Notes under the pieces: model-generated | Told to the model about the DNA's origin: nothing | The model's input: the letters and a program-made list of their open reading frames with translations, nothing else | Database searches by the model: none | Program-made: the position numbers and the translations under genes | Assembly (NCBI GenBank): GCA_023381535.1 | Contig: JAMCSN010000240.1 | Location: 14,206-78,205, forward strand | Length of the DNA stretch: 64,000 bases | Source of the DNA: Bacteroidota bacterium | GTDB taxonomy: Bacteria; Bacteroidota; Ignavibacteria; Ignavibacteriales; Melioribacteraceae | Direction: 5' to 3' | In this document: piece by piece, positions 570-17,516 of the stretch | Layout: every line of letters begins with the position of its first letter | Position numbering within the stretch: position 1 is the first letter of the stretch

Positions 570-1028
570 ATGCAAGCAAAAGAATTACTAAAAAAGCTAG
601 GTGAAGAAACACTCTATTCTACAAAAGGACATTTCAAAGCATGTGATTTGAGACGAATAATGATTTCATGTACAATCTGGATTTGCGCAGTGCTAAATGT
701 AATAAGTCTGATTGGCATTAATTCTACAATCGATAAGTGGATCGCGGCATCTAGCCTTTTTGGATTAATTGCATTATTAATTTGGAACGAAGGAGAAGAA
801 AAAAATTATCGAGCCAAACATAAACAAGCAGCAGAGACTTATTTGTCATTACATAAAAAAATAAGAAGTTATTTCTTATTAGAAAAATTTGATAACCAAG
901 AAATAGAAAAGCTGAGTAATGAGGTAATCCAATTCGATAAAAGTGAAAAGCCTGAAATTCCAGCTTTTGCCAGACTATTAGCAAAACGAGCAATTGAAAA
1001 GAAGGGAGAAACAGATAATTGGTTTTAG
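570..1028 (+). CDS. SLATT-type two-TM membrane protein, putative CBASS effector
   Basis: A 152-residue protein with two close membrane helices (about residues 30-50 and 57-73), a charged linker and a helical cytoplasmic C-terminus. This layout, directly upstream of a SMODS nucleotidyltransferase, matches SLATT-domain proteins, which are proposed pore-forming effectors gated by nucleotide second messengers. The start has a GGGAGAAA ribosome binding site. The stop is 16 bp before the nucleotidyltransferase, so the two are probably co-translated. The family call rests on topology, size and neighbour rather than a strict motif. An alternative is an unrelated two-TM protein. Confidence 0.65.
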   Translation: MQAKELLKKLGEETLYSTKGHFKACDLRRIMISCTIWICAVLNVISLIGINSTIDKWIAASSLFGLIALLIWNEGEEKNYRAKHKQAAETYLSLHKKIRSYFLLEKFDNQEIEKLSNEVIQFDKSEKPEIPAFARLLAKRAIEKKGETDNWF

Positions 1029-1044
1029 AAAAAAATAATATACG

Positions 1045-1839
1045 ATGAATATCAATTACAAACTTACAGTTTTTGCTCAACAAGAATTAGTAATTTCTCA
1101 TGGTGATACTGAAAAATTAAGGATTAGGATATCTATTGAGCAATTAAAAAAGAAGCTAAAAGATAACCTAGGTGCAGACATTAAAGATATTTTGCTCTTT
1201 GGTTCATTCACCCGTAATACAATATTACCACGTAAGTATGATCCTAATTCAGATATAGACTTAATGGTTATCTTCAACACAAGTAATGGAATTAAGACGC
1301 CTGAAACTTATAGAAAAAATTTATTGGATATAGTTTCGGTTGCTTATCCAAACTCAATCTCTAAAAAAGATTTTCCTGTTGTTAAGTTGGAATTGAATCA
1401 CATAATGTTTGATATTGTACCGGCATACACGCAAGAAAACATTTTCGTGTGGAGAAGATCATATAATATTCCAGATTCTTCAAATGGTTGGAGAAGCACA
1501 GTACCAAATGATATTAATGGAAACCTTTCATCTACCAATCAATCTTATGGTAATAATATTTTTCTAAATACAATAAGATTATGCAAGCATTGGAATGCAT
1601 CAACTGGTTATCCTTTTGAATCCTACCTGATGGAAAAACAGATAATAGATAATGGCTACTTTATCAAAGAGGATTTATATAAAAGATTTCTCGTAACATT
1701 AAATGATATCGCTGGAGGAGATGCTGGTGTAAGACAAGCTCTAGACTATATTGAAAAATATAAAGGCGATTGGTTTAATGACCCAAATGAAGAAAAACAA
1801 TTGCAATGGTTACAAAAATTATTACCGGGATTGAAATAA
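1045..1839 (+). CDS. SMODS-type CD-NTase nucleotidyltransferase
   Basis: A 264-residue protein of the DNA polymerase beta fold. The nucleotidyltransferase signature is complete: GSF at residues 53-55, D70-I-D72 and a third acidic residue in FDIVP at D123. Downstream of the core is an all-helical region typical of OAS-like/SMODS enzymes. Such enzymes make cyclic oligonucleotides after phage sensing and activate a neighbouring effector. The SLATT gene upstream is the likely effector. The last 34 bp overlap the longest reading of the next gene, which indicates translational coupling. No Cap2/Cap3 ubiquitin-like or HORMA/TRIP13 partners are seen, so if this is CBASS it is a short form or one with unusual partners. 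Confidence 0.8.
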   Translation: MNINYKLTVFAQQELVISHGDTEKLRIRISIEQLKKKLKDNLGADIKDILLFGSFTRNTILPRKYDPNSDIDLMVIFNTSNGIKTPETYRKNLLDIVSVAYPNSISKKDFPVVKLELNHIMFDIVPAYTQENIFVWRRSYNIPDSSNGWRSTVPNDINGNLSSTNQSYGNNIFLNTIRLCKHWNASTGYPFESYLMEKQIIDNGYFIKEDLYKRFLVTLNDIAGGDAGVRQALDYIEKYKGDWFNDPNEEKQLQWLQKLLPGLK

Positions 1840-3692
1840 ACTTGGAAGAAAAACAAATTAGTAATCCTTATTCTACTGGTCAAGGCGGTGCACACTTTGA
1901 AAATCGTGTACAATCCGCCTTCACGATTTTATTATTGACTGGTGGCGTTGCACCATGTATGCCTCAGTGGCCTATAGTTGAAATCAAACTTCAAGGTAAG
2001 TATCAAGGATATAATGTTGATGATCTTATTGTTCATTGTCAAAAGCCAAATTCTGAAAGGAAGTCAAAACTATTAGGACAGATTAAACACAAAGTTAAAT
2101 TTACTATTGGCGATCAAATATTAAGCGAAGTTATTACTGCTGCCTGGAACGATTTTACAAATCCAAAAATTTTTTCGGAAGCCTCACAAGATATTATTGC
2201 ACTCATTTGCGGCCCTTTGTCTGCCATTGATACCGATAGTGTAAGAACTTTATTAGAGCAAGCTAGATATTCGAAAAATGGTGATGACCTAATAACAAGA
2301 ATTGAACTTGGGAAATTTACAAGTAACGAACAACGAGAAAAATTCAACGTTTTTAAACACCATTTGACGAATGCAAATAATAATATTGAATTGAATAATG
2401 AACAAATATGGAGATTTCTAAAATCCTTCTACTTGTTAATATACGATCTTGATATTAAAGGTGTTGCACTTTCTCTTCTTCATACCTTAATTGAGCAGTA
2501 TTCACGAAATAATGTTAGTTCAGTGTGGGCGCAAATAAATGACCATGTTCAATGGGTAAATGAAAATGCTGGATCAATTACTCTTGATACAATACCAGAA
2601 GAAATAAGAAAAGTATTTCAAAAGATTCGAGTGGAAGCAATTCCTGAAGAATTTGTTAAAGATACTACAAAATCAGAAATAACCGATTGGAATGATTATG
2701 AGAATGCATCTGATTTAGTCGTTGCATGTTTAATAGGTTCGTGGAATGAAAATTCGCCCGCAGACAAATCGATTCTCAGCCAATTGGCTGGGCTGAAATA
2801 TGAAAAATGGATTCCCAAATTACGCGATGTTTTGCAATATCCTGAGAGTCCGCTGGAATTAAAGAATGGAATCTGGTTTGTAAAGGACAGAATAAAGTTA
2901 TGGCAATCTTTGAGTGCAAGAATTTTTGATGATCATTTGGACATTCTGAATAAATGCGCAACAATGGTTCTTACTGAACGAAATCCCAAATTTGAATTAC
3001 CCAAGAGGGACCAATTTGCGGCTCAGATGTACGGAAAAGTATTGAACTACTCCAATCACATACGAAAGGGATTATCAGAGGCTTTAGCACTTACAAGTAG
3101 CTATTCAGATCTTTTAAAAAATTGTTCTACAAATAAACCTGAAATGACAGCAATACTAGTATTAAGAGAAATATTTGATCAAGCTGATTGGGTACTTTGG
3201 GCAAGTTTGAACGATCTATTACCCACTTTGGCAGAAGCAGCTCCTGATGAATTTTTAAAAATAGTTGAAGATAATTTCAAAAATGGTACGGGTGTATTTG
3301 ATAGTCTTTTTGCACAAGAAGGAAATGGCGTTACTGGCTGGAATTATATGACTGGCTTATTATGGGCACTAGAAGCCTTAGCTTGGAGTGAAACATTCCT
3401 TGTTCGTGTTACTGTACTGCTAGGAGAATTAGCTAATATCGACCCTGGTGGTAATTGGATGAATCGCCCTTCAAATTCTTTAACAAATATATTTCTTCCT
3501 TGGTTACCACAGACTGCAGCAACAATTGATAAACGAAAGGTTGCTATAAAAACACTTGACAAAGAATTGCCAGAAATATCTTGGAAACTTTTACTTTCTC
3601 TTTTACCAAGAAAACATCAAATATCTTCTGGTTCATATAAACCAAAATTCCGAAATTATATTCCAAAGGATTTAAATGGAAAAGGTATCTAA
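1806..3692 (+). CDS. Nuclease-like protein with helical extension, defence-associated
   Basis: A 628-residue protein. The N-terminal 100 residues look like a restriction-endonuclease-fold nuclease: FE at 31-32, VDD at 71-73 and QIK at 92-94 form an E...D...QxK pattern like that of DUF4297/Cap4-type dsDNases. The rest is long, helical and Trp-rich, with no Walker A motif. The ATG at 1806 lies inside the nucleotidyltransferase gene; a TTG at 1842, just after that gene's stop, is an alternative start that keeps the conserved-looking NPYSTG segment. It may be a second effector of the CBASS-like operon or an independent defence protein. The 3' end overlaps the next gene by 17 bp in another frame (see findings). 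Confidence 0.6.
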   Translation: MVTKIITGIEINLEEKQISNPYSTGQGGAHFENRVQSAFTILLLTGGVAPCMPQWPIVEIKLQGKYQGYNVDDLIVHCQKPNSERKSKLLGQIKHKVKFTIGDQILSEVITAAWNDFTNPKIFSEASQDIIALICGPLSAIDTDSVRTLLEQARYSKNGDDLITRIELGKFTSNEQREKFNVFKHHLTNANNNIELNNEQIWRFLKSFYLLIYDLDIKGVALSLLHTLIEQYSRNNVSSVWAQINDHVQWVNENAGSITLDTIPEEIRKVFQKIRVEAIPEEFVKDTTKSEITDWNDYENASDLVVACLIGSWNENSPADKSILSQLAGLKYEKWIPKLRDVLQYPESPLELKNGIWFVKDRIKLWQSLSARIFDDHLDILNKCATMVLTERNPKFELPKRDQFAAQMYGKVLNYSNHIRKGLSEALALTSSYSDLLKNCSTNKPEMTAILVLREIFDQADWVLWASLNDLLPTLAEAAPDEFLKIVEDNFKNGTGVFDSLFAQEGNGVTGWNYMTGLLWALEALAWSETFLVRVTVLLGELANIDPGGNWMNRPSNSLTNIFLPWLPQTAATIDKRKVAIKTLDKELPEISWKLLLSLLPRKHQISSGSYKPKFRNYIPKDLNGKGI

Positions 3693-5397
3693 TAAAGAAT
3701 ATTGGGAACAAACTAATTTCTATTCTGATTTAGTGGTTGAGAAAGCGAAAGATGATATAAATAAATTAAAAGAACTAATTAATAATCTGGATAATTTACC
3801 TCAACCTAGTATTGAAAAATTACTCACTCTTCTTTCATCTGAAAAAATTATTTCACAATCTGATGAAATAAAAACAAATTTATGGAATGCCTTAGTCGAT
3901 TTTACGTTAAAACATAAACGGTTTGCAGATGCAAAAAGGGCGTTGGATAAAGAAATAGTATATAAAATTGAATTGGTTGCGAGTAAACTCGAACCTAAAA
4001 ATCCACTTTATCTTTATGCACGTCTTTTCAGTAGTCGTGATGTAGATTTATTTGAGGAAAGTGGTAATTGGGATGAACAACACAAGAAGCTTTCTAATCG
4101 TCGTCAACAAGCTTTAAAAGATATATTAAATAATGGTGGAATCGATGCGGTGCTCGATTTTTTAAATAATGTCGATTCTCAAACAAATGTAGGTTATGCC
4201 TTAGGAGCAATTGCAGATGATGCAATTGATGAAAAAATATTACCAATCTGTATGAATGCCAATAATAAAAAACTCTTTCAATTTATTCATGCTTATGTTT
4301 GGATAAAATATTATGACAATGGCTGGGTATGGGTAGATAGAATGCTAAGTAAATCCTGGACTAAAATTCAAAAGGCTGATTTCTTAACATTTCTACCTTT
4401 TATTTTAGATACATGGAAAAGAGTTACCGAAATACTTGCTGATTCTGAATTTTTATATTGGGAGAAAACCTATATAAATCCATATCAATCCGATGGTGAT
4501 CTTACTCTGGCTATCGATAAATTAATTGAATTTGGTAGACCACATGCTGCTTTGGATTGTATTAATAAAATTCTATATGATAAAAAACCACTAGATGTTC
4601 AGAGAGCAGTAAGAGCACTTTTAGCTGGCATCACTTCAAAAGAATCATCAAATATGATGGATGTTCATAATATAACTGAAATAATTAAGGCTTTGCAAGA
4701 AGATGATTCGATTTCGGAAGATGATTTGTTTAGAATAGAATGGGGATATTTACAGTTGTTGGATGGATATAATAGTGTTAGCCCAAAATATTTGGGAAGT
4801 CGATTAGCGAATGATTCAAGTTTTTTTTGTGAGTTGATTCGAAAAATTTATCGTTCTAAAAAAGCTTCAGCAGTTGCATCTGAACCTACAGAAACAGATA
4901 AAGCAATTGCTACTAGAGCATGGGAACTACTTTATCATTGGCAAACACCACCTGGTACACGAAAGGATAACCAATTTGATGGGAGACAATTTACAATATG
5001 GCTAAATGAAGTTAAGTGCGCATGTGATGAAAGTGGTCATCTTGAAGTAGCTCTCTCGCATATCGGTAAAGTTTTGTTCTATGTCCCGGATGATTCCAGT
5101 GGATTTTGGATTCAAAAAATTGTCGCTGAGGAACTTAATAAAAAAGAAGTCGAAGAAATGAGAAATGGATTTTCTACAGAGGTCTATAATTCGCGTGGTA
5201 CATATTGGGTTGATCCAACTGGAAAACCGGAAATTGAACTAGCAAAGGCTTATCGTAAAAAAGCCGATGAAACAGAAAATGCTGGTTTTCAAAGATTAGC
5301 ACTAACATTAAGAAAGGTTGCAGAATCATATGAAAACGATGCAAAAAGAATTATTGAAGAACATAAAAGGGAAATTGAAGAAGATAAAATCACATAA
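3676..5397 (+). CDS. Long helical (HEAT/TPR-like) protein, partner or C-terminal half of the preceding nuclease
   Basis: A 573-residue soluble protein made almost wholly of amphipathic helices, with repeat-like blocks around residues 20-230 and 260-400 and a charged coiled tail (about 525-573). No enzymatic motif is visible. It starts with ATG inside the last codons of the preceding gene, shifted +1. Composition and style continue the helical part of that protein, so the two ORFs may form one roughly 1200-residue protein broken by a frameshift, or a pair of coupled subunits. It ends just before the hsdR remnant. No function is assigned beyond the defence context. Confidence 0.6.
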   Translation: MEKVSNKEYWEQTNFYSDLVVEKAKDDINKLKELINNLDNLPQPSIEKLLTLLSSEKIISQSDEIKTNLWNALVDFTLKHKRFADAKRALDKEIVYKIELVASKLEPKNPLYLYARLFSSRDVDLFEESGNWDEQHKKLSNRRQQALKDILNNGGIDAVLDFLNNVDSQTNVGYALGAIADDAIDEKILPICMNANNKKLFQFIHAYVWIKYYDNGWVWVDRMLSKSWTKIQKADFLTFLPFILDTWKRVTEILADSEFLYWEKTYINPYQSDGDLTLAIDKLIEFGRPHAALDCINKILYDKKPLDVQRAVRALLAGITSKESSNMMDVHNITEIIKALQEDDSISEDDLFRIEWGYLQLLDGYNSVSPKYLGSRLANDSSFFCELIRKIYRSKKASAVASEPTETDKAIATRAWELLYHWQTPPGTRKDNQFDGRQFTIWLNEVKCACDESGHLEVALSHIGKVLFYVPDDSSGFWIQKIVAEELNKKEVEEMRNGFSTEVYNSRGTYWVDPTGKPEIELAKAYRKKADETENAGFQRLALTLRKVAESYENDAKRIIEEHKREIEEDKIT

Positions 5398-5415
5398 ATT
5401 TTCACCAACTAAATT

Positions 5416-5594: not shown

Positions 5595-5596
5595 TT

Positions 5597-5938
5597 ATGG
5601 AAATAACGTTCAACGACAAAAAACTTTCAAAGATTGTAAACGATGATCGAAAGCTTGAGCAGAAGATGGGAAAAGTGAGAGCTGAAAAAATTAGACTTCG
5701 TTTGAATCAATTACATGATGCCAACACTCTCGAAGATGTTCGCTATCTTGCCGGTAATTATCATGAACTTACTGATAACAGAAAAGGTCAATGGGCTTGC
5801 GATCTCGATCAGCCCTACCGTTTAATATTTACTCCGCATGAAAATCCTATTCCCGTGAATCCGCATGGTCAATATATTTGGATCGAAATCAAAGGCGTTG
5901 AGGTTATTGAAATAATAAATTATCACAAAGAGAAGTAA
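5597..5938 (+). CDS. higB: HigB/RelE-family toxin
   Basis: A 113-residue type II toxin of the RelE/ParE superfamily, expected to cleave ribosome-bound mRNA. Family features visible are the basic helical N-terminus, the YHELTDNRKGQWACDL block and the YRLIF strand that carries the catalytic basic residues, then a C-terminal strand rich in Ile and Glu. Length is normal. The antitoxin starts 2 bp after its stop (order toxin-antitoxin, as in higBA). It lies between the hsdR remnant and the real hsdR. It is probably autoregulated through the palindrome at 5556-5576. Confidence 0.85.
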   Translation: MEITFNDKKLSKIVNDDRKLEQKMGKVRAEKIRLRLNQLHDANTLEDVRYLAGNYHELTDNRKGQWACDLDQPYRLIFTPHENPIPVNPHGQYIWIEIKGVEVIEIINYHKEK

Positions 5939-5940
5939 CC

Positions 5941-7035
5941 ATGACAAAGAAAAATGAATATTTTCCACAGTCCGTTCCGCATCCTGGAACTGATCTTTCG
6001 GAAAAATTAAATGAACTTGGAATGGGACCAAAAGAATTTGCAATTAGAGCTGATAAGCCTGAAAAAACCATCACAGCAATTCTTAATGGAGAAAGTTCTA
6101 TAACTCCTGATATGGCAGTTCAGTTCGAAAACGTTCTAAAAATCCCAGCTCATTTTTGGCTTAACAGACAGCGCAGTTATGATGAATATTTAGCTAGAGT
6201 AAAAAGAGAAAAAGTTGTTGAAGAAGCAATCCCATGGTCAAGAAATTTCCCGATTAGTGATATGGTTAAAAAAGGATGGCTACCGCATGTAAAATCTCCG
6301 AATGAAAAAGCTGCCTCATTACTTTCTTTCTTCTCATTTTCAACCCATAAAGCATGGGAAGATTACTATTTCAATCGCGAACTTAAAGTTGCATTTCGAA
6401 TTTCTCTTGCCCATAATAAAGATTCTTATTCGATATCGGCTTGGTTAAGAAATGGTGAAATCCAAGCTGCTCAAATAAATTCAAAGGACTATTCGGAAAA
6501 AGATTTCAGAAATTCTCTGCTGGCTCTAAAAAAAATAATGACTGAACATCCTGTAAATTTCTTTCAGAAGCTTAAAGAAGTCTGTCGCAGTGCCGGTGTT
6601 AAAGTTGTTTATACTCCTTGCCTTCCTGGTAGTCCTATCAGCGGCGCTACTCGATGGATTAATGATAATCCTTTAATCCAACTTTCGGGTAGGTTCAAAC
6701 GTAATGATAGTTTTTGGTTTACATTCTTCCATGAAGCCGGGCATATCTTATTGCATGGCAAAAAAGATATTTTCTTAGAAGATGTAAAGTACAAAGATTA
6801 TGATGACGGAAAAGAAAAAGAAGCAAACGATTTTGCGGTTAAATGGACATTAACAATTGAACAAGAAGAGGAGATTTTAAATACTCGACCACTAACAGAG
6901 TCTGATGTAATTGCATTTGCTAAGAAATTTGGTACTCACCCAGCAATTATTATAGGGAGATTTCAACATAGGAAAAAGATACATCCTTCCGTAGGAAGAG
7001 ATTTAATCCAAAAGATAAATTTAGATAATGCCTAA
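5941..7035 (+). CDS. higA: HigA-type antitoxin fused to an ImmA/IrrE metallopeptidase domain
   Basis: A 364-residue protein. Residues about 15-75 are an XRE-type helix-turn-helix of HigA type (LNELGMGPKEFA...ITPDMAV...FENVLKIPAHFWL). The C-terminal half is an IrrE/ImmA-like domain with the zinc motif HEAGH at 264-268 followed by LLHGK. It should bind and neutralise the toxin and repress the operon. The peptidase domain may cleave a partner or the antitoxin itself under stress, as ImmA does for its repressor, but that is inference. Its stop overlaps the hsdR start (ATGCCTAA, 7028-7035), coupling hsdR translation to this gene. Confidence 0.85.
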   Translation: MTKKNEYFPQSVPHPGTDLSEKLNELGMGPKEFAIRADKPEKTITAILNGESSITPDMAVQFENVLKIPAHFWLNRQRSYDEYLARVKREKVVEEAIPWSRNFPISDMVKKGWLPHVKSPNEKAASLLSFFSFSTHKAWEDYYFNRELKVAFRISLAHNKDSYSISAWLRNGEIQAAQINSKDYSEKDFRNSLLALKKIMTEHPVNFFQKLKEVCRSAGVKVVYTPCLPGSPISGATRWINDNPLIQLSGRFKRNDSFWFTFFHEAGHILLHGKKDIFLEDVKYKDYDDGKEKEANDFAVKWTLTIEQEEEILNTRPLTESDVIAFAKKFGTHPAIIIGRFQHRKKIHPSVGRDLIQKINLDNA

Positions 7036-10000
7036 GATCACCGAGAGCAATATTGAATCTTTTGCGATCGAGCAGCTCCAATCTCTTGGTTGGGAATATA
7101 TTCACGGTTTAGCAATCGCTCCTGGTGCAGAGCAATCAGAACGGGAAAACTTCGAACAAATTATTTTAATTGATCGTTTAAGAAAATCGCTTTCAATTAT
7201 TAATCCTCAGATTCCTAAAGAAGCGCAAGAACAAGCAATTCAAAAAGTATTGCGTATTTATTCTCCTGAACTTCTTCACAACAACGAAGAATTTCATAAG
7301 CTGTTAGTCGAGAAAGTAAAAATACCTTACCAGCAAGATGGATATGAACGCAGCTATGAAGTAGCACTTATTGATTTCGACAATCTTGAGAACAATCAGT
7401 TCCTTGTAGTAAATCAATTCACCGTTGTAGAAAAAAATCAAAATAAAAGACCTGACATAATTCTCTTTGTAAATGGTTTGCCGCTTGTAGTTATAGAACT
7501 AAAAAATGTAGCCGATGAAAATGCAACTATAGATTCCGCATTTAATCAGATTCAAACATATAAAGTATTCATTCCTTCACTTTTCATTTATAACGCATTT
7601 TGTGTTATCTCAGACGGATTAGAATGTAAAGCCGGAAGCATCTCCGCTGGTTTTAATCGCTTCATGGCTTGGAAAACTTCAGACGGCCAAAAAGAAGCTT
7701 CAAGATTTGCACCTCAACTGGAAGTTCTGATTAAAGGAATGCTTAATCCTAAAACTCTTTTGGATATTGTTCGCAATTTCATTGTCTTCCAAAAAATTAA
7801 GAAAGTTGAGCCGGTGGCGAAATCCCGGATCGAAGAATTCGGGAAAGATTCAAAAACCGGTATTACTCAAATACACACTGAAAAAATTCTATCGGCATAT
7901 CATCAATACTATGCAGTTAAAAAAGCTGTTCAATCAACACTTCGTGCAACCGGTGTTCATTCCCTCTCCTTTGGAGAGGGCAAGGGAGAGGCTGGTAAAG
8001 GTGGTGTTGTTTGGCACACACAAGGTTCCGGTAAAAGTTTAAGTATGGTTTTTTATTCTGGTCTGCTAATAACCACTCCGGAATTGGAAAATCCAACAAT
8101 CGTGGTAATAACGGATCGAAACGATCTCGACAATCAGCTATTCGATACTTTTGCATCCTCGCGACAGTTGCTCCGTCAAGATCCAATTCAAGCGGAAAGC
8201 AGAACTCATTTAAAAGAATTGCTGAAGGTTGCAAGCGGTGGAATTGTATTCACTACCATTCAAAAATTCTTGCCTGAAGACGGTAAGCCTGAATATGATC
8301 TTTTATCAGAAAGAAGAAATATAATTGTAATTGCAGATGAAGCTCACAGAACTCAATACGGTTTTGAAGCTTCACTAAAAGATTTAGTTGATAAAGAAAC
8401 TAAAGAGGTAATCGGAAAACGTATTGCCTATGGTTTGGCAAAATATCTTCGTGATGCTTTACCGAATGCAACGTATATCGGTTTCACCGGAACGCCAATT
8501 GAAAGCAGTGATGTAAACACTCAGCAAGTCTTTGGTCAATATGTTGATATATACGATATAGCAAAATCTGTTGAAGACGGTGCTACTGTAAAAATATATT
8601 ATGAAAGCAGATTAGCAAAAGTAAATCTTGATGAAGAAGGTCGTAGATTAATTGAAGAATTTGACAATGAGCTTGAACAAGAAGAATTAACCGAAACTCA
8701 AAAAGCAAAAGCTAAATGGGCTAAGCTCGAAGCCATTGTTGGTAACAAACAAAGAATAAAAAATCTTGCTAAAGATATTGTTACTCATTTTGAACAGCGG
8801 CAAAGTGTTTTAGATGGTAAAGGAATGATTGTAGCAATGAGCCGTAGAATTGCTATTGATTTATATAATGAAATAATTGAATTAAGACCGGAATGGCATA
8901 ATGACGACCTTGCTAAAGGTGAAATAAAAGTTGTAATGACAGCCGCAAGTTCAGATGGTCCAGTCTTGGCAAAACATCACACAACAAAAGAGCAACGCAG
9001 AAATCTTGCCGATAGAATGAAAGATCCCGCCGATCCTCTCAAACTCGCAATTGTTCGCGATATGTGGCTCACCGGTTTTGATGTTCCCTGTTTGCACACT
9101 CTTTATATCGATAAGCCAATGCGCGGTCATACTCTAATGCAAGCTATCGCTAGAGTCAATAGAGTATTCAAAGACAAAAAAGGCGGACTCATAGTTGATT
9201 ACCTTGGAATCGCAAGTGATCTAAAGAAAGCTCTCTCATTTTATTCTGATTCCGGCGGTAAAGGCGATCCTACAGAAACAATCGATAAAGCTGTTGAATT
9301 GATGCTCGAAAAATTGGAAGTTGTTCAGCAGATGTTTAACGAAGAAAGTAAAACTCAAAATGCAATCAGCGTGGAAGAACCTACAGCTTATTACAAAGGA
9401 AGTTATAAATTTAATTATCCCCGTTTCTTTACTGCAGAACCAAAAGAAAAACTCTCAATACTTCTGCAAGCTGAAGAACATATTCTTGGTCTGCAAGATG
9501 GAAAGAACAGATTCATTCGAGAAGTAACTTATTTGAACCAAGCGTTTGTTTTGGCCATGCCACATCAAGAAGCGGTTGCAATCAAAGAAGAAGTTGCATT
9601 CTTTCAAGCTGTTAAAGCACGCTTAGTCAAATTCATTCCTGAAAGTTCCTCTCCCTTTGGGAGAGGCGGAGGTGAGGGCCTTGAATCTGCTATCAAACAA
9701 ATAATTGATGAAGCAATTAGTTCCGATAAAGTGATAGACATTTTCGAAGCTGCTGGATTAGAAAAACCGGAAATCTCAAAACTCGAAATCCTTTCCGATG
9801 AATTCCTTCTCGAAGTTCAAGGAATGAAACATAAAAACCTTGCAATAGAATTATTGAAAAAATTATTGAACGATGAAATAAAGATTAGAGCAAAATCAAA
9901 TATTGTAGTAAGCAGAAAATTACTTGAGATGTTGGAAAGCTCTATTAAGAAATATCAAAATAATTTGCTCACAACTACAGAAATCATTCAAGAACTAATC

Positions 10001-10339
10001 AACATTGCAAAGCAAATAAAGGAATCGGATAAGGAAGCAGAAAAACTTGGATTAACAAAAGAAGAAGTTGCCTTTTATGATGCTTTGGAAACCAACGACA
10101 GCGCAGTAAAAGTTCTTGGTGATGATACTCTAAAAGTAATTGCAAAAGAAATTGCTGATAAAGTTCGAAAGAATGCTACAATCGATTGGACAATTCGCGA
10201 AAGCGCAAGAGCTAAATTAATGGTGCTTGTAAAAAGAACTCTTTCAAAATACGGCTATCCACCGGATAAGCAGCAGAAGGCAATTGATACAGTTCTCAAA
10301 CAAGCAGAACTTTTTGCGGATTACATAACGACTAATTGA
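7028..10339 (+). CDS. hsdR: Type I restriction enzyme HsdR (endonuclease and translocase)
   Basis: 1103 residues. The N-terminal nuclease has the PD-ExK site D143...E157-L-K159. The SF2 motor follows with Walker A QGSGKSL (G333-S-G-K), DEAH at 437-440, motif III FTGTP and motif VI ARVNR. The C-terminal helical domain docks on HsdM. The enzyme translocates DNA and cuts at a distance from unmethylated sites, with HsdM and HsdS from the left of the window. Two G-rich palindromic repeats sit in frame, before Walker A (SLSFGEGKGE) and at about residues 874-884 (SSPFGRGGGEG). No stop interrupts the frame. Start ATG overlaps the antitoxin stop by 8 bp. An N-terminal partial copy lies at 5416. Confidence 0.95.
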   Translation: MPKITESNIESFAIEQLQSLGWEYIHGLAIAPGAEQSERENFEQIILIDRLRKSLSIINPQIPKEAQEQAIQKVLRIYSPELLHNNEEFHKLLVEKVKIPYQQDGYERSYEVALIDFDNLENNQFLVVNQFTVVEKNQNKRPDIILFVNGLPLVVIELKNVADENATIDSAFNQIQTYKVFIPSLFIYNAFCVISDGLECKAGSISAGFNRFMAWKTSDGQKEASRFAPQLEVLIKGMLNPKTLLDIVRNFIVFQKIKKVEPVAKSRIEEFGKDSKTGITQIHTEKILSAYHQYYAVKKAVQSTLRATGVHSLSFGEGKGEAGKGGVVWHTQGSGKSLSMVFYSGLLITTPELENPTIVVITDRNDLDNQLFDTFASSRQLLRQDPIQAESRTHLKELLKVASGGIVFTTIQKFLPEDGKPEYDLLSERRNIIVIADEAHRTQYGFEASLKDLVDKETKEVIGKRIAYGLAKYLRDALPNATYIGFTGTPIESSDVNTQQVFGQYVDIYDIAKSVEDGATVKIYYESRLAKVNLDEEGRRLIEEFDNELEQEELTETQKAKAKWAKLEAIVGNKQRIKNLAKDIVTHFEQRQSVLDGKGMIVAMSRRIAIDLYNEIIELRPEWHNDDLAKGEIKVVMTAASSDGPVLAKHHTTKEQRRNLADRMKDPADPLKLAIVRDMWLTGFDVPCLHTLYIDKPMRGHTLMQAIARVNRVFKDKKGGLIVDYLGIASDLKKALSFYSDSGGKGDPTETIDKAVELMLEKLEVVQQMFNEESKTQNAISVEEPTAYYKGSYKFNYPRFFTAEPKEKLSILLQAEEHILGLQDGKNRFIREVTYLNQAFVLAMPHQEAVAIKEEVAFFQAVKARLVKFIPESSSPFGRGGGEGLESAIKQIIDEAISSDKVIDIFEAAGLEKPEISKLEILSDEFLLEVQGMKHKNLAIELLKKLLNDEIKIRAKSNIVVSRKLLEMLESSIKKYQNNLLTTTEIIQELINIAKQIKESDKEAEKLGLTKEEVAFYDALETNDSAVKVLGDDTLKVIAKEIADKVRKNATIDWTIRESARAKLMVLVKRTLSKYGYPPDKQQKAIDTVLKQAELFADYITTN
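7962..7991. repeat. G-rich palindromic dispersed repeat inside hsdR, copy 1
   Basis: The sequence has arms CCCTCTCC and GGAGAGGG around TTT, followed by a GGGAGAGG tail. It encodes SLSFGEGKGEA in HsdR, between the helix ending RATGVH and the strand GGVVWHTQG, where such an insertion would be a surface loop. A second copy is at 9648-9678. The identical style suggests an invading REP-like element tolerated in frame. Confidence 0.7.
9648..9678. repeat. G-rich palindromic dispersed repeat inside hsdR, copy 2
   Basis: Arms CCTCTCCC and GGGAGAGG around TTT, followed by CGGAGGTGAGGG. It encodes SSPFGRGGGEG between two helices of the HsdR C-terminal domain. It is the same element family as 7962-7991, read in the same orientation, again without breaking the frame. 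Confidence 0.7.
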
Positions 10340-10746: not shown

Positions 10747-12165
10747 ATGTCCATATTTAATTATCTCGTGCAAGAATTCAACAGATATATCTCTGAAATC
10801 GAACAAAGTCAAAAGCAAAAAAGATTTCTTTACCCAATTAGTCACTCTGATCCAATCTTAATTAAATTACTTTCTCACGTGTCAAAATCTGGTTTCGTCA
10901 TTTTACCTGTCCCTGGTAAACCGGATTGGAATCCCAATAACGATGTTTTCCAACTAGAAAGAAATTTAGCTTTGAATGGAATCAATATCACTAGAGCGTA
11001 TTTATTCCCCATCCGTCATCTCTTGTATGATCCCATTGTGCAAAAACATATTGGACTTGATAAAGAATCTGGTATTGAAGTTCATCTACTATATATTGGG
11101 AATCTCCTTAAAGAAAACAGATTACCCCATATTGATTCACTAGATATTGGTATATGGGATGATGAGGTTATTACTAAAAAACTTGTTTCTAACTCGGATC
11201 ATAGTGTTTCTGAATTACTTATCTCATGTGAAGAAGAAGATCTTGAAGTATATAAAAGAAATCTCGAAGAAATAGAAAAATATTCTGAAATACTTTCCTT
11301 CAGCGATACTAATACTGATCATCCTGATCTTGAAGAACCAATGTTAGCTACAGCTCCTGTGGCAGAATTTTTATCTAAAGTGCTTTGTAAAGGTAATCAT
11401 ATCTCAGAAGATTGTTCTTGGTATCACTCTATTTGGCAATATCTAAGAATATTCGACGCTGTTTCAACTCCAACCTGGCACTCTTCTTTTTATGCAACTG
11501 CTTTGACTCGTGTTTTTAAATCCTCTAATAAAAGTGTTTCAATATTAATTTCTGGAACTGCCGATTACTCTATGCTAGCTCATGTTTTATGGACCTTAGA
11601 AAAGAATGTTGATATTAGTTATAAAATAACAGTTCTTGATTTATGTGAAACTCCTCTATTTTTATGCAAGTGGTATGCAAAGTTGCACAACACAAATGTC
11701 GAAATTATTGCTGAAGATATCTTCAAATATTCTCCATCAAATAATTTTGATCTAATTATAACAGATGCCTTCCTAACACGCTTCCCGTATGAAGATAGAA
11801 AGAAAGTCCTAATAAAATGGAAATCTTTATTAAATGAAAATGGAAGTATTGTTACAACTGTAAGGTTAGGTGGGGATTCACTTGGTATCCCGCGTAAAGG
11901 AAGCGAAAAGCAATCCAATCTTTTCGCTAATAACATTAAAATGAATTATACTTTTTGGCGTAATTTTCTATCCATATCTTTAACTGAATTAGAAGAAAAA
12001 AGCAAACAATATGCATCTAGTATGACTAGCTATTCAGCTGGTCAAAAAAAAGATGTCGTTAATATGTTCTCTGAGTGTGGATTCAATATTATTGAATCAA
12101 TAGAAAAAGAAGTTAAAGGAGAGCTAGAACCTACTGTATACTTGGAAATTCATGCAAAGAAATAA
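10747..12165 (+). CDS. Protein with C-terminal SAM-dependent methyltransferase domain, first gene of an unrecognised operon
   Basis: 472 residues. The C-terminal half is a class I methyltransferase: motif I-like SILISGTADYSML (about 265-277), the acidic end of strand 2 in ITVLDLCE, the AEDIF segment and FDLIITDAF (about 335-343) as motif IV. The glycine loop is reduced (SGTADYS instead of GxGxG). The N-terminal 200 residues, with FVILPVPGKPDWN and a conserved-looking HLLYDP segment, match nothing I know. The substrate is unknown; the sequence shows neither DPPY nor other DNA-methylase catalytic motifs, so a protein, small-molecule or RNA target is as likely. The next gene starts 14 bp downstream. 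Confidence 0.7.
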   Translation: MSIFNYLVQEFNRYISEIEQSQKQKRFLYPISHSDPILIKLLSHVSKSGFVILPVPGKPDWNPNNDVFQLERNLALNGINITRAYLFPIRHLLYDPIVQKHIGLDKESGIEVHLLYIGNLLKENRLPHIDSLDIGIWDDEVITKKLVSNSDHSVSELLISCEEEDLEVYKRNLEEIEKYSEILSFSDTNTDHPDLEEPMLATAPVAEFLSKVLCKGNHISEDCSWYHSIWQYLRIFDAVSTPTWHSSFYATALTRVFKSSNKSVSILISGTADYSMLAHVLWTLEKNVDISYKITVLDLCETPLFLCKWYAKLHNTNVEIIAEDIFKYSPSNNFDLIITDAFLTRFPYEDRKKVLIKWKSLLNENGSIVTTVRLGGDSLGIPRKGSEKQSNLFANNIKMNYTFWRNFLSISLTELEEKSKQYASSMTSYSAGQKKDVVNMFSECGFNIIESIEKEVKGELEPTVYLEIHAKK

Positions 12166-12179
12166 ATGGAAATATTATA

Positions 12180-15100
12180 GTGAAAAATGAATTCGTTACT
12201 AAAATTGAATATTTAATATCGGAACTTACATTTCCCATCCCCGTAATTGAGTATGATGATCAGTCTGAATATTTGATTACAAAAAATCCTATAATATGGC
12301 GAGATCTTCGTGTTAATTTTTTATTAATTAAGAATTGTCTCTCATTCGAAAAAATAATTAACGAGACAAAAAATTCTTATGCAGAAAGTCTCATATTTGT
12401 TCTTTTACCAGAAATATTTCCATCTTTATCATATTTAGTTCTTGAGAATTATCTAGTTTTTTTCCCAATTGATGTTCAATCTATCGAACAAAATAAATGT
12501 AATCTGCCTGATTTAATAGATTATAAGTTCCATAGATTGTTTTACCTGAGTCGCACATTTGAAGATACATTATTCGATCAAAAATTATTTGATGAGTTCC
12601 TTCTTAATTCTAAAATACAGAATAAATATTCATCAAATCTTTCTTCAGTGTTAAAAAATCGTCAGTTGAATCCAGCTGATTGGGTTGACCATCCTCTCTG
12701 TGATAAAATTAAATCCTCATTTGAAAAAGATGATCTACAAGTTTTGGTTGGGGCTAGTTCTTCTGGTAAAACTACTTTAGCATTCCAAATTGGTTGGAAA
12801 GAAAACCTCAATGGGAAATTGGTCAATTATATGAATATGAATCAATTTCAAAATGTTACTCTAAAGTTTTCATTATTTCTTCTTGAACTACAGAAGGGCA
12901 ATAACAGTTTATTGATCATTGATGATATTCAATCAAACCCTAATTCAAGTATTTTTATTTTTCGTATTATTGAACTTACTCGTAAGTGTTCCATTATTCC
13001 TCTATGTCGTTTGTTATTATTAACATGGCCTAATTTTGTAGAAACCCTTTCTAATGAATTATCAGATTCAAAAGTTTTGCATATAACATCTGAACAGATC
13101 AGAAATGGTTTAATTAAAAAAACATTCCCCGATCTAATTGACAAGAGAGTTCAAGAAATTATTGACTCTTACGGATCAGACTTGTTTTTATTAAATGCGT
13201 GTTTGAAATATTTTGAGAAAAACAATTTCATCCCATCTAATTCTGATCTTGCTGAATACTTTTTAAGTCTATGGCATGATCAAAGTGATGCTTTAAAAGA
13301 AAACGATGCAAAACGAATTCTTATTGTTGTTTGTGCATTGGGTAGGTTCGATCTATATATCAGCAAGCCATTTTTATTTGAAGTATCTGGCTGCCATGAA
13401 GAAACTCTTGATTTATTAATAGAAAAGCAAATATTAAGATATATTCAAGGCTTATTAACTATTGGACATCGTTCATTTGCTATTTTGTTAGGTGATTTTC
13501 TTGAAAGCGAAAATATATGGCTGGAAGTCGAAAAGAAAAATGGTCCACGCAATATCTCTGATACTATTCTTCTCTTTTTAAGATCACTCCCTCCACCTAA
13601 AACTTTAGAAACATTAAGATTATTACAAAATCAATCGGGTTTTAAAGGCAATATTAATTTATCTCAGAGGACTGGGGCACTTATTGAAGTTTGGAAAGCT
13701 TTTGAGTCAGTTCTTGAAAGAATTTCTTCTCAACAAGAGATTGATCCATCATGGGGTAAGACACCATCATCTGTCATGTTTGCCACTCAGTCATTGTGTG
13801 CAATTGGAAAAAATAAAGAAGCCGAAAAAAGCATGAATTTCCTGCGCACTATATGGCATACAGATCAGAAAAACGACATATTTATTGATTTGAGTAAATT
13901 ACCGACAAAGGAAGATTTTGAAAAGATACATGATAGAATGGTTGAAGAGGACCATAATTACTTAGTCAATAATAGTGTTCTAAAATGGGAATCAAGCCAA
14001 TCACTTAATATGTCATTAATGCATAAAAACTGGTTACTAGGTGTATTACTTACCGCAGAGGCTACTTATGATGATAAAAGCGATTACAAGAAAAAACTTC
14101 TTGAATATATATTCAGAACTCAATTAAATAGCGGTGCATTTTATCCTGAAAGAGTTCCATGGGTTACCGCGAGAATTCTTATCGGATTAGCAGCTGCGGG
14201 CGTTACTTCTGCTTATAGTCCTAATGTAAGAAAAGCAATTGATTGGTTATTAAAACCACAAAGTGAGGGTGGTGCGATCACGGATGGTATTTGGCATTCT
14301 GGCACTGGTAGTTGGAATACAGATTTGGAAGTAACCTCTATGTGTGTATTAGCTCTTATAAATTCTGGAGTTGATCCAAACGATTTGAGACTAAATAGAG
14401 CTAAAACATTCATTTACTCTAGTAAAACTCAATGGGTAAATCCTACAAATATTCTTGATGGCGCATTAGCTGCTGAGGCTTTTATCACTCTTGGTGGAAG
14501 TTGGGATGACATTGCAAATGAAGTCAAGGAAATTTCCCAATGGACACGTGCTGAATCATTTTGGAAATCAGCGAATAAAGGCTCAAATGAAACTTTTACT
14601 CAGTCATGCAGAGTATCTCAAATTTCTTCACATTTAGTCAATATTGGTTGGTCAGCTATTAAAATTGATTTACCCGCTTTAGTAAATGCATTTACAATAC
14701 CAAGAATTATAATCACCAAGAAAGAATCTAAAGATGAAGTTCGTCCAATTATTTCAACCAATTCATTAGATCGTTCGTTAACAAATGCCTTGAATCAGTT
14801 AGAAATGATAAAAAAAATTGGATTATCTGATTTAACAGTGGTCGGTGATTATAAACGCTTTGATGAAAAAGTGAGAAATCGATTAATCGATTGGAAAAGA
14901 AGCATTGTTAATCCGTTGATAAATAAATCATCCGCACACGAGAATTTTCTAATATGGGCTGCTCCTGGTAGTGGAAAAACATTTTTCATTCAAGAGATTG
15001 CAAAGGAAATCAAAAATGATATTGACTATATTGAGATAAATCTTGCTCTAATGAGTAAAGAAAAAGTTATTGATTCTTTGCAAGAAGCTAAAAATAATTC

Positions 15101-15644
15101 ACGTTCAGTTTTATGTTTGATTGATGAAGTAGATGCTCGTTCAGATGAAACATGGCCATATGAAGAAATTTTCTCTTTCTTAGACTTGAATACTAAGGAC
15201 GATAAAAAAATTGTTTATGTTTTAATCGGAAGCTCCAGTAGTGGTATTGAAGGATTGACGCTAAATATTTCTAAGCGATTAAAAGGAAAAGATCTTGTTG
15301 ATCGAATACCTAATGATCGTAGATTCACAATCCCCAAGCTTGAGGAGATGGATAAAGTAATTCTGTTTGTTCATCAAATACTATTAGCTTCCAAAAAACG
15401 AGGGGGAAATCTTATTCAGTTTGAGAAACTGGCTCTATATTATATAATTTTAAATGAATCATTGAGTTCTCCTAGGCAACTTAGAGATTTTGCTATTTCA
15501 GCGGTTCAACGCGTTGCTATTGATGAAGATAAATTAAGATATGTCGATTTATTTGCAAAGGGAAATCCTGAAAGTCATCGTTTCTGGTCAAAGGAACAAC
15601 CTCTATCAGAAAGACTTTCAGAAACTTTTATACTTTTTGAATAA
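12180..15644 (+). CDS. Large STAND-like / toroid / AAA+ ATPase, core of an unrecognised operon
   Basis: 1154 residues starting at GTG. Order of domains: unknown N-terminus (1-170); first P-loop module with Walker A GASSSGKTT (191-199) and Walker B LLIIDDIQ (D248, D249), followed by a helical STAND-like region; from about 620 to 820 an alpha/alpha toroid resembling squalene-cyclase/prenyltransferase repeats (QW-like blocks around GGAITDGIW and GSWNTDLEVTSMCVLAL, but no DxDD catalytic motif); and a C-terminal AAA+ module with Walker A APGSGKT (928-934) and Walker B LCLIDE (D982, E983). Two ATPases on one chain around a toroid suggest a sensor-switch defence protein. I know no described family with this layout. 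It is probably translated with both neighbours. Confidence 0.7.
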   Translation: MKNEFVTKIEYLISELTFPIPVIEYDDQSEYLITKNPIIWRDLRVNFLLIKNCLSFEKIINETKNSYAESLIFVLLPEIFPSLSYLVLENYLVFFPIDVQSIEQNKCNLPDLIDYKFHRLFYLSRTFEDTLFDQKLFDEFLLNSKIQNKYSSNLSSVLKNRQLNPADWVDHPLCDKIKSSFEKDDLQVLVGASSSGKTTLAFQIGWKENLNGKLVNYMNMNQFQNVTLKFSLFLLELQKGNNSLLIIDDIQSNPNSSIFIFRIIELTRKCSIIPLCRLLLLTWPNFVETLSNELSDSKVLHITSEQIRNGLIKKTFPDLIDKRVQEIIDSYGSDLFLLNACLKYFEKNNFIPSNSDLAEYFLSLWHDQSDALKENDAKRILIVVCALGRFDLYISKPFLFEVSGCHEETLDLLIEKQILRYIQGLLTIGHRSFAILLGDFLESENIWLEVEKKNGPRNISDTILLFLRSLPPPKTLETLRLLQNQSGFKGNINLSQRTGALIEVWKAFESVLERISSQQEIDPSWGKTPSSVMFATQSLCAIGKNKEAEKSMNFLRTIWHTDQKNDIFIDLSKLPTKEDFEKIHDRMVEEDHNYLVNNSVLKWESSQSLNMSLMHKNWLLGVLLTAEATYDDKSDYKKKLLEYIFRTQLNSGAFYPERVPWVTARILIGLAAAGVTSAYSPNVRKAIDWLLKPQSEGGAITDGIWHSGTGSWNTDLEVTSMCVLALINSGVDPNDLRLNRAKTFIYSSKTQWVNPTNILDGALAAEAFITLGGSWDDIANEVKEISQWTRAESFWKSANKGSNETFTQSCRVSQISSHLVNIGWSAIKIDLPALVNAFTIPRIIITKKESKDEVRPIISTNSLDRSLTNALNQLEMIKKIGLSDLTVVGDYKRFDEKVRNRLIDWKRSIVNPLINKSSAHENFLIWAAPGSGKTFFIQEIAKEIKNDIDYIEINLALMSKEKVIDSLQEAKNNSRSVLCLIDEVDARSDETWPYEEIFSFLDLNTKDDKKIVYVLIGSSSSGIEGLTLNISKRLKGKDLVDRIPNDRRFTIPKLEEMDKVILFVHQILLASKKRGGNLIQFEKLALYYIILNESLSSPRQLRDFAISAVQRVAIDEDKLRYVDLFAKGNPESHRFWSKEQPLSERLSETFILFE

Positions 15645-15661
15645 TACTAAGGAGCATAGCC

Positions 15662-16231
15662 ATGCATAAAAAATTTAGTGCAATCATAATTCATGGAAGT
15701 TTTGGAGATCCAAATGAAAACTGGTTTCCATGGTTAGACAAGGAATTAACAAAAATAGGTGTTAGTTGTATTCGTCCTCAACTTCCTACTCCAACTGGAC
15801 AATATTTAGAAAATTGGGAAAAGATATTTTGGGCAAACATAAAATCAATAGATGAAAATACTATTTTAATAGGTCATAGTTTAGCCCCTGCTTTTATTCT
15901 CAACATATTACAACAAATTAAAAAGCCAGTATTTTCAACTATTCTTGTTTCTCCATTTATCAGAAAACTTGGATTACCTGAATTTGATCGTGTAAATATT
16001 TCATTCATCAAGGGTCCATTTAATTGGCTTAGAATAATAAAAAATGCTGGGAAAATAAGAATATTTGTAGGTGATAATGACCCTTACGTGCCTTATGTAG
16101 CAGTTCAAGAGGTTGCATCAAAGTTAAATGCAAAGATATCAGTGATTCACAATGGAGGTCATTTAAATGCTGAAGCTGGATTTACTAAATTCCCACTTTT
16201 ATTGGAAGAACTAATTAAATTAATGAAGTAA
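15662..16231 (+). CDS. RBBP9/YdeN-family serine hydrolase
   Basis: 189 residues, alpha/beta hydrolase fold of the small RBBP9/YdeN type. It has HGSFGDPNENW near the N-terminus, nucleophile elbow GHSLAP (S73), acid in VGDNDPYVP (D138 or D140) and histidine in NGGHLNAEAGF (H167), so the triad is complete. Length is normal. A strong ribosome binding site (AAGGAG, 15650-15655) lies 18 bp after the ATPase gene, marking it as the third gene of the operon. Its substrate is unknown. In this setting it could be an effector, for example an esterase or lipase-like enzyme acting on a metabolite, or a regulatory hydrolase reversing the methyltransferase product. Both ideas are inference. Confidence 0.8.
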   Translation: MHKKFSAIIIHGSFGDPNENWFPWLDKELTKIGVSCIRPQLPTPTGQYLENWEKIFWANIKSIDENTILIGHSLAPAFILNILQQIKKPVFSTILVSPFIRKLGLPEFDRVNISFIKGPFNWLRIIKNAGKIRIFVGDNDPYVPYVAVQEVASKLNAKISVIHNGGHLNAEAGFTKFPLLLEELIKLMK

Positions 16232-16366: not shown

Positions 16367-16756
16367 TTATTTCCTAATTTTTTCTACAATTTTTTCACCT
16401 GTCCGACCTACTACATAACCGCCTAAACCAATTTGCAATAAAGTCCATGCTTCATTACTGAGACGAAATGCTAACCAACCAAAAGAATCACACACAACAA
16501 GAATCAAAAAAGTAAGCATCGTGATTGGTCTCCAATTCCGCTGCAGCCAGTTTTGTCCTTTCGCTTCCGCTTCAACAATCCTTCCTTGAGAATCAAGTAG
16601 CTTCGCTTCATATTCTAACGCCTTACCTAAAAATTCATTCTCAATTTTCGTTAGCTCATTTTTGAGTTTTCCCCTTTCTTCATCCGTTGTTGTAAGATTA
16701 TCAATCAGATCAGTGATTGGTTTTACAATTCCACCTAAAAAATCTAATACTCCCAT
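16367..16756 (-). CDS. Three-TM holin of the gene-transfer-agent/phage type
   Basis: About 130 residues from the ATG at 16756, chosen because AAGGAGG lies just upstream; the longer open frame to 16846 is not needed. Residues 1-75 are a soluble coiled region (DEERGKLKNELTKIENEFL), then NWRPITMLTF leads into membrane helices and the protein ends in a basic tail. The layout and the NWLQRNWRP block match the GTA_holin_3TM family, which lets endolysin cross the inner membrane. It is the last gene of a three-gene minus-strand lysis cassette with 16758-17018 and the M15 peptidase. The gap to the upstream gene is 1 bp. Confidence 0.65.
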   Translation of the reverse strand: MGVLDFLGGIVKPITDLIDNLTTTDEERGKLKNELTKIENEFLGKALEYEAKLLDSQGRIVEAEAKGQNWLQRNWRPITMLTFLILVVCDSFGWLAFRLSNEAWTLLQIGLGGYVVGRTGEKIVEKIRK

Positions 16757-16757
16757 C

Positions 16758-17018
16758 TTAACCTCCTTCTTTGTCTGACAACTGATGGCTGATCGCCGAC
16801 AGCTTAATTGAATAAATCTCCCGGATAATATTCTTCTCAACTTCACTCAATTTATTATGAAGATCTTCGAACCTGGACAAATAATTTTTCTCGATCGAAG
16901 ATGATTTCTTTTTCGTTTCATCAACATCTTTCTCAATCCGCTTTATCCTGGACCAGAACAACATATTCACCAAACCCAGAAGCCCTCCAATTATCCATAG
17001 ATAAATATTCTCACTCAT
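16758..17018 (-). CDS. Small membrane-anchored coiled-coil protein of the lysis cassette
   Basis: 86 residues: one N-terminal membrane helix (about 5-22, LWIIGGLLGLVNMLFW) and a long charged coiled coil (25-70). The last dozen residues (KLSAISHQLSDKEGG) come from a repeat of the GATCAG/CATCAG word type, so the natural C-terminus may have been replaced. Its place between endolysin and holin suggests a spanin-like or holin-accessory role, but no lipobox is seen. Unassigned family. Confidence 0.6.
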   Translation of the reverse strand: MSENIYLWIIGGLLGLVNMLFWSRIKRIEKDVDETKKKSSSIEKNYLSRFEDLHNKLSEVEKNIIREIYSIKLSAISHQLSDKEGG

Positions 17019-17021
17019 TTT

Positions 17022-17516
17022 TTACCAAACGACTGTTAACTGATCACCAACAACTTTCTCATAAACAGTTTTTCCATAAACTTTCTTCGAAATCATCACA
17101 TCCTTTCTATTCTTCTCACCATTCCAAGAGACATGAATCCATCCCGCCTCGACTCGCCTGTCAAGGCGAGGCTGGTTCCCGAATTCATAGATCAATTGAT
17201 CAAATGAAAAATTTTGTAAGACTATGTTGAACACATCAACTAAAATCATGGATGGAACGATGAAGTCCGCAGCTTTCCCTTCGAGATGTTGGGAATTGAA
17301 TTTGCCACCGACAGCAGCATTGACTTCAAACGAACGAAAACCCGAATTAATAAAAATTGGAAGAGCAATAATTTCCCTGAGAGGTTGAAGAACATTCACA
17401 CAAAGTAATCTCAAATTCTCAATCTGTTTTTCATTCGGCTCATTTCTGTAACCATGCCTTTCCGCAACCTGAGATATTGTAAACTCATCAAGATTAAAAT
17501 TCTCAGTTAATTTCAT
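17022..17516 (-). CDS. M15-family peptidase, phage-type endolysin
   Basis: 164 residues. The zinc motif SQHLEGKAADFI (His and Asp ligands) and the second histidine in WIHVSW are those of D-Ala-D-Ala carboxypeptidase-like Peptidase_M15_3 endolysins. No signal peptide, as expected when a holin is present. Between LIYEFGN and GWIHVSW an extra PRLDRRVEA is encoded by a 33-bp palindromic repeat, exactly 11 codons, close to the last zinc ligand. The final codons (GDQLTVVW) look repeat-derived too. It is the first gene of the cassette, 3 bp before the next. The role is peptidoglycan cleavage during phage or GTA release; if the element is dead, the gene may be a relic. Confidence 0.75.
   Translation of the reverse strand: MKLTENFNLDEFTISQVAERHGYRNEPNEKQIENLRLLCVNVLQPLREIIALPIFINSGFRSFEVNAAVGGKFNSQHLEGKAADFIVPSMILVDVFNIVLQNFSFDQLIYEFGNQPRLDRRVEAGWIHVSWNGEKNRKDVMISKKVYGKTVYEKVVGDQLTVVW
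17143..17175. repeat. 33-bp palindromic dispersed repeat inside the M15 gene
   Basis: The core is GACTCGCC...GGCGAGGCTGG with an outer CCCGCCTC. A second, longer member of the family lies between genes at 35564-35622 (GACTCGCC, CGAGGCTGG and GAGGCGGGC shared). Here it adds exactly 11 codons to the endolysin without a frameshift. Confidence 0.7.

Follow-up and report, generated by a model that had tools for sequence, protein, structure and literature searches.

A recurrent gene trio of a methyltransferase, a STAND-toroid NTPase and an alpha/beta hydrolase, proposed as an NLR-like conflict system of bacteria

A constant core with changeable output is the typical layout of NLR-like conflict systems. 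Bacterial STAND receptors sense phage proteins through repeat arrays, and in Avs proteins such arrays (TPR-type) follow the NTPase as the sensor. Another described system, MADS, is a multi-gene set, mad1 to mad8. We describe here a set of three genes that partly resembles these systems, found in a window of 64,000 nucleotides from a Bacteroidota bacterium (contig JAMCSN010000240.1, positions 14,206 to 78,205). Gene 1 encodes an S-adenosylmethionine (SAM)-dependent methyltransferase protein, gene 2 a STAND NTPase with an alpha/alpha toroid and a C-terminal AAA+ module, and gene 3 a serine hydrolase (Table 1). Gene 2 shares with Avs proteins and animal NLRs a STAND-type NTPase core and an exchangeable output-type domain, which is TIR in two relatives, and matches such proteins in Foldseek at low TM-scores; unlike Avs, it has a squalene-cyclase-type toroid after the NTPase, its swapped domain lies at the C-terminus, and methyltransferase and hydrolase partners recur beside it. 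The main text of a study of MoxR/VMAP and other NTP-dependent ternary conflict systems presents modular NTPases with alpha/beta hydrolase partners (Kaur et al. 2020, PMC7159879). The trio likewise joins an NTPase to an alpha/beta hydrolase but has no vWA or VMAP gene; the same main text contains neither "methyltransferase" nor "squalene", and "toroid" once, for STAND assemblies. We propose, at a probability of about one half, that the trio is a horizontally spread, NLR-like conflict system, probably anti-phage, with a three-part core in which gene 2 is the receptor and switch and genes 1 and 3 are its catalytic partners.

The set recurs in distant bacteria. A profile search with gene 2 returned 28 genome loci, 10 with the toroid and 18 with the AAA+ module only, in other proteins. 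Gene 1 lies in the same cluster at nine of those 10 toroid loci, all but L019: L001 (the window's type), L003 (Actinoplanes), L013 (Tersicoccus), L022 (an alphaproteobacterial metagenome-assembled genome, MAG), L023 (Paractinoplanes), L024 (a Clostridia MAG), L025 (Actinospica), L027 (an Aerophobetes fragment) and L028 (a Clostridiales MAG). A toroid search in 140 genomes of the family of L003, the centre included, added one further locus, L061, again with gene 1, so that gene 1 is close by at 10 of 11 toroid loci, in Bacteroidota, Actinomycetota, Clostridia, Alphaproteobacteria and Aerophobetes. An alpha/beta hydrolase is present at nine of the 10 clusters carrying gene 1 and the toroid. The near-identical contigs L001 and L029 are of the window's kind and were counted once together with it; gene 2 of the window is 100% identical, over its full length, to the copy in L001, a Bacteroidetes MAG. 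L027 is fragmentary and its pieces were used apart, the hydrolase lying between the toroid pieces and the gene-1 piece.

The position of the hydrolase varies. An RBBP9-like hydrolase follows gene 2 in the window, L022, L024 and L027; it comes after, or overlaps, a membrane-protein gene in L023 and L061 (profile match 2.6e-10 in the latter), and is divergent and upstream of the operon in L025. In L003 and L013 a different alpha/beta hydrolase, of 267 aa, sits between genes 1 and 2. As a control, 27 other loci (377,580 bases, L019 included) were searched with two home-made profiles, and the sole match was a hydrolase fused to the toroid protein of L019; the profiles missed at least one alpha/beta hydrolase, that beside the L058 methyltransferase. 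There (L058:8530-10139) a relative of the gene-1 methyltransferase domain and another open reading frame (ORF) meet tail to tail and overlap by 4 bp; the start of the latter seems, by eye, to resemble alpha/beta-hydrolase plant methylesterases.

Two further comparisons bear on whether three unrelated genes merely came to lie side by side in an island by chance. In a protein collection without gene context, 15 of 34 gene-2 relatives have a longest contig of exactly the same size as that of one of the 120 gene-1 relatives listed (of 399). For gene 3, nine of 120 listed (of 451) relatives coincide in this way with a gene-1 or gene-2 relative on the lists, the window's own cluster being one of the nine. 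Shifting the sizes by 1 to 5 bases left 0 or 1 coincidence for gene 2 and 0 to 2 for gene 3. Distances between gene 1 proteins correlate with those between gene 2 proteins (Mantel r 0.94, n 23, p 0.0005; 0.95, n 16, with contig pairs and the window only) and with those between gene 3 proteins (r 0.82, n 12, p 0.0005; 0.85, n 8), at 2000 permutations each. Both sets omit L027 and L061, and the second also omits L028, which has no hydrolase, and L003 and L013, whose hydrolase is of another family. A single window is compatible with chance adjacency, and a gene-1 relative occurs without the toroid in eight of eight tested genomes; the recurrence of the set in distant phyla, the fusion in L019, the longest-contig coincidences and the correlated distances contradict chance, which we regard as highly improbable.

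Gene 2 belongs to the STAND-type P-loop NTPases, with a match to AAA_14 at 2.1e-13. Matches to nSTAND5 (2.5e-6) and nSTAND3 (5.8e-5) fall under the curated cut-offs, yet are shared by 23 of 25 relatives (E up to 0.1). Foldseek returned Avs4 (2.6e-6), Avs5 (2.7e-6) and NLRP proteins, all with low TM-scores of 0.13-0.25. The N-terminal extension has no Pfam match. The toroid has the alpha/alpha fold of squalene-hopene cyclase (2sqc), in which DXDD is the catalytic acid motif. It differs from that enzyme in lacking DXDD in 32 of 33 proteins, the lone match, by pattern alone, being DLDD in P0011, and in having an invariant set of its own, YP.R..W...R and GTG.WN. Catalysis of the squalene-cyclase type is accordingly not favoured for the toroid. 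E717, kept in 27/33, was judged by eye to lie close to the position of the cyclase acid motif.

Conservation was measured on 25 gene-2 relatives found by sequence, and on 33 once eight divergent proteins were added. Among the 25, the toroid is the best-conserved part, narrowly ahead of the AAA+ module: the mean frequency of the major residue is 0.64 in the toroid, 0.60 in AAA+, 0.54 in the arm region, 0.51 in the NTPase, 0.41 in the N-terminal extension and 0.30 in the linker. With the divergent proteins added, the toroid and the AAA+ column set are equal at 0.56, the latter then taking in unrelated tails. D579 and E627 are invariant in 33/33, as are the motif residues listed in Table 1. This pattern fits a conserved ligand pocket or active site, and hardly a diversifying antigen sensor; the invariant residues probably line the cavity of the ring. 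Walker A K197 is kept in 32/33 and Walker B D249 in 26/33.

Gene 3 matches the RBBP9/YdeN family profile PF06821 at 74.9 bits (cut-off 22), and its triad S73, D140 and H167 was located by alignment to YdeN and RBBP9, using what we take to be the triad positions of RBBP9. It shares family, length and catalytic residues with these proteins and differs in being linked, and in one relative fused, to a STAND-toroid. The methyltransferase half of gene 1 has the Rossmann-type fold and SAM motif of class I methyltransferases. Structure searches used whole proteins, and the list for gene 1 was filled by methyltransferases. Its N-terminal domain by itself has no Pfam match and is uncovered in the relative L028; a profile of seven such stretches reached only E 0.88, at best, against sequences of solved structures. 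DUF6879 matched three of 39 gene-1 proteins (best 0.0047; location within the protein not given) and has no mention in the open-access full texts searched. The first-pass annotation of the window, made from its letters alone, had read the three proteins correctly: a nucleophile-acid-His set in the hydrolase, a class I methyltransferase fold in gene 1, and in gene 2 two P-loop modules, now a STAND/AAA_14 core and a C-terminal AAA+, with STAND affinity. The same holds for its three tightly spaced genes, which lie 14 and 17 bp apart on the + strand.

The C-terminal slot of gene 2 is where the system varies. It holds AAA+ in the window copy and the relatives nearest to it, TIR in L024 (TIR_2 1.1e-8, 36.0 bits, cut-off 28) and in L022 (TIR_2 5.3e-5, 24.1 bits, below that cut-off), the RBBP9-like hydrolase in L019 (PF06821 3.7e-13), and an unassigned tail in L003, L013, L023, L025, L028 and L061. 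The six loci with an unassigned tail instead carry a small membrane protein directly after gene 2; a profile built from five of them, each copy with at least two hydrophobic segments, finds that of L061 at 4.5e-40. The earlier proposal that gene 1 or gene 3 is the effector is unsupported as written, because the output-type domain swaps at the gene 2 C-terminus and a separate hydrolase stays in the TIR loci. At L024:7276-9048, directly 3' of the trio, is a 590-aa protein with DUF4231 (3.5e-6), the start of which, by eye, presumably resembles SLOG-type domains.

The AAA+ module was considered as an essential part and rejected, since 18 of 28 genome loci hold it alone of the gene-2 domains, in other proteins. 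Gene 1 is absent from 13 of 13 searched genomes that carry the module in this way, and from the L002 genome. Because it is found in other proteins and in genomes without gene 1, the module is a separate mobile domain. The AAA+-only loci (L002, L004-L012, L014-L018, L020, L021 and L026) come from Chloroflexota, Nitrososphaerales and others; the module makes up almost the entire protein (357-358 aa in six of them) or is attached to other sequence, and occupies two successive genes in L007.

The main rival is abortive infection with the hydrolase as toxic effector: the toroid would sense a phage protein and activate gene 3 as a lipase, esterase or peptidase, which gene 1 modifies or restrains. 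Catalytic Ser, Asp and His motifs are kept in the eight separate hydrolases examined (the L061 copy left out) and in the L019 fusion, as judged by regular expressions for Ser and His and partly by eye for Asp; in L019 the output end of gene 2 is itself the hydrolase; and passages of PMC7159879 and PMC8195603 describe alpha/beta hydrolases of NTPase conflict systems as peptidase partners or effectors. However, L022 and L024 keep a separate hydrolase despite TIR at the output end, the L025 hydrolase gene is divergent and upstream of the operon, and gene 3 has no hydrophobic segment and so no sign of membrane insertion. We hold this rival to be somewhat unlikely.

A second rival places the trio outside defence, as a small-molecule signalling or specialised-metabolite module under a STAND regulator that is merely parked in the island. 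Four actinobacterial loci carry an additional EgtD-like methyltransferase before gene 1 (L003, PF10017 at 1.4e-18; L023, L025 and L061, matches to a two-sequence profile), P0032 has PF03704, presumably a transcription-activator domain, alongside toroid motifs, and the predicted fold of gene 1 resembles small-molecule methyltransferases. The TIR and AAA+ output domains, the sporadic spread, the CBASS neighbour and low G+C content in the window, and the toroid's missing DXDD speak against this explanation, which is rather unlikely.

A number of observations weigh against our proposal of a conflict system. L019, in its whole assembly, has no gene 1, and L028 has no hydrolase. Host phylogeny may contribute partly to the correlated distances. 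The STAND lysine is arginine in 1/33 and, by eye, in L061, and N or G replaces Walker B D249 in 7/33; ATP use may therefore not be universal. In a PADLOC scan of 10 proteins, partners or neighbours at five related loci, the one clear match was AbiH (3.2e-9), near L028, which itself, like the CBASS-type genes of the window, gives a defence context in favour of the proposal; an EgtD-like protein among the 10 matched mad2 at 2.8e-4. Gene 1 does not predict the toroid or the system. Clade scans for gene 1 (E up to 1e-10) matched 1/395 genomes in the phylum of the nearest genome, 3/346 in that of L003, 0/301 in Chloroflexota, 1/294 in the phylum of L026, 2/245 in the class of L024 and 5/240 in that of L022. 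Four of these 12 positive genomes are toroid carriers known or chosen for the toroid beforehand; the other eight lack it. Six of the eight match the methyltransferase half only, and G1600 and G1212 match nearly the whole gene-1 model; in G1600 the contig (L055) ends about 0.7 kb beyond a close gene 1, with no gene-2-like reading in three frames. The gene-1 family thus extends beyond the system, which is rarer than the gene-1 counts. The toroid occurs in 2/140 genomes of the L003 family. The system is rare, and its sporadic distribution, also seen in the gene-1 counts, speaks for the proposal. By tblastn, no copy was found in 72,556 plasmid records (with gene 1 and gene 2 of the window and gene 2 of L003 and L024) or in 50,697 phage records (window gene 1 and L024 gene 2), and viral contigs had no match to the gene-1 or toroid profiles. 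This is unusual for mobile defence, and such collections may hold few of these clades.

No family in Pfam, NCBIfam or PHROGs spans the full length of gene 1 or gene 2, no complete PADLOC 2.0 system matches the trio, and the set is not described in the open-access full texts searched, a scope with few preprints (those in PMC) and apart from subscription papers and supplements. The first reading of the trio as unrecognised therefore holds; neither outcome named as counting against it, genes lying apart or a known profile for the trio, came out of the profile searches and PADLOC. MADS is among the closest known systems: 37 of 39 gene-1 proteins match the mad2 profile, the window copy over the methyltransferase motifs (84/492 positions). 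The trio differs from MADS in that, mad2 aside, its sole mad-type similarity is a weak match between gene 2 and mad8 (3.7e-5). Among the matches listed for the four upstream genes at 1806-10339 and the three at 147-1836 (for the cyclase, the best 25 of 31) there is no mad match. MADS membership was rejected, the mad2 match being short and the mad8 match weak. Elsewhere in the window, a UvrA-like ABC protein matches the mad3 profile at 4.4e-93, a score that likely comes from shared ABC ATPase similarity.

Table 1. Features of the trio and its neighbourhood, in window positions.
Feature	Position	Strand	Remarks
Gene 1, SAM-dependent methyltransferase protein, 472 aa	10747..12165	+	motifs ILISGTADYS (266), DLCETPL (298), DAFLTRF (340)
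Gene 1 N-terminal alpha/beta domain, residues ~1-195	10747..11331	+	predicted model
Gene 1 class I methyltransferase domain, residues 215-472	11389..12162	+	
Gene 2, STAND NTPase - alpha/alpha toroid - AAA+ protein, 1154 aa	12180..15644	+	
Gene 2 N-terminal extension, residues 1-164	12180..12671	+	least conserved among folded parts
Gene 2 STAND/AAA_14 NTPase core	12672..13214	+	Walker A GASSSGKT (K197); Walker B D248 D249
Gene 2 toroid, residues 501-840	13680..14699	+	squalene-hopene-cyclase fold without DXDD motif
Toroid motif YPERVPWVTAR, residues 655-665	14142..14174	+	Y655, P656, R658, W661, R665 in 33/33
Toroid motif GTGSWN, residues 708-713	14301..14318	+	G708, T709, G710, W712, N713 in 33/33
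Gene 2 C-terminal AAA+ ATPase, residues 879-1154	14814..15641	+	exchangeable slot
Gene 3, RBBP9/YdeN-family serine hydrolase, 189 aa	15662..16231	+	S73/D140/H167
CBASS-type pair, 2TM effector-like protein and SMODS nucleotidyltransferase	570..1839		cyclase 1045..1836
ORF after the cyclase, first	1806..3692		phrog_18693, 3e-50
ORF after the cyclase, second	3676..5397		phrog_18693, 1e-52
HsdR and HTH/M78-peptidase gene	5941..10339		latter PD-Lambda-2_B-like, 4.6e-36
Holin and endolysin	16367..17516	-	phrog_3427, 1.7e-41; phrog_894, 3.2e-37
UvrA-like ABC protein	30866..33640	-	

The window supports the earlier view of a defence island. At its start is a CBASS-type pair of a SMODS cyclase and a two-transmembrane (2TM) effector-like protein, and G+C content is 0.31-0.37 across the first 16 kb and mostly 0.37-0.43 beyond 18 kb. 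The trio had been placed directly after a type I restriction operon; the HsdR is there, beside a helix-turn-helix (HTH)/M78-peptidase gene, but 407 bp separate gene 1 from its upstream neighbour, and no HsdM or HsdS was matched among seven ORFs of at least 120 aa at 147-10339, both of which count against that placement. Immediately after the cyclase, two overlapping ORFs match consecutive parts of phrog_18693 (1258 aa, a PHROG without known function), as if one large protein were split; neither has a Pfam match at E up to 0.1. Immediately beyond the trio and on the opposite strand, a holin and an endolysin may be a phage lysis remnant or a gene-transfer-type cassette. Promoter-like and terminator-like sites are no commoner than in shuffled sequence.

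In the proposed conflict system, the invariant pocket of the toroid would be occupied by a ligand or substrate that is itself conserved. The STAND NTPase would link its binding to oligomerisation driven by ATP, and the output would lie with the C-terminal domain (AAA+ here, TIR or hydrolase in relatives). Genes 1 and 3 would be catalytic partners, most likely acting on one common substrate: the methyltransferase may add a group that the hydrolase removes or cleaves, setting or reading the signal held by the toroid. Methyltransferases and alpha/beta hydrolases form writer/eraser pairs in BioC/BioH and LCMT1/PME-1; such a relation here is speculative and on balance doubtful. The immune role itself is suggested by context and domains.

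A STAND family best conserved in a ring of terpene-cyclase fold, with a recurrent methyltransferase and hydrolase, suggests that a conserved ligand, and not a variable antigen, is recognised or chemically acted on. Direct targets for point mutants are the invariant toroid residues, S73 and the SAM motif, and the TIR variants offer a nicotinamide adenine dinucleotide (NAD) read-out. In plant immunity, methyltransferases produce methyl salicylate and esterases of the alpha/beta-hydrolase type cleave it, upstream of defence. By analogy, the methyltransferase and the hydrolase of the trio might write and erase a methyl (ester) group on a small-molecule "hormone" held in the terpene-cyclase-like ring of an NLR-type receptor, with the C-terminal AAA+, TIR or hydrolase acting thereafter. 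This is quite unlikely; if true, the hormone-type switch would parallel the methyl salicylate immunity of plants.

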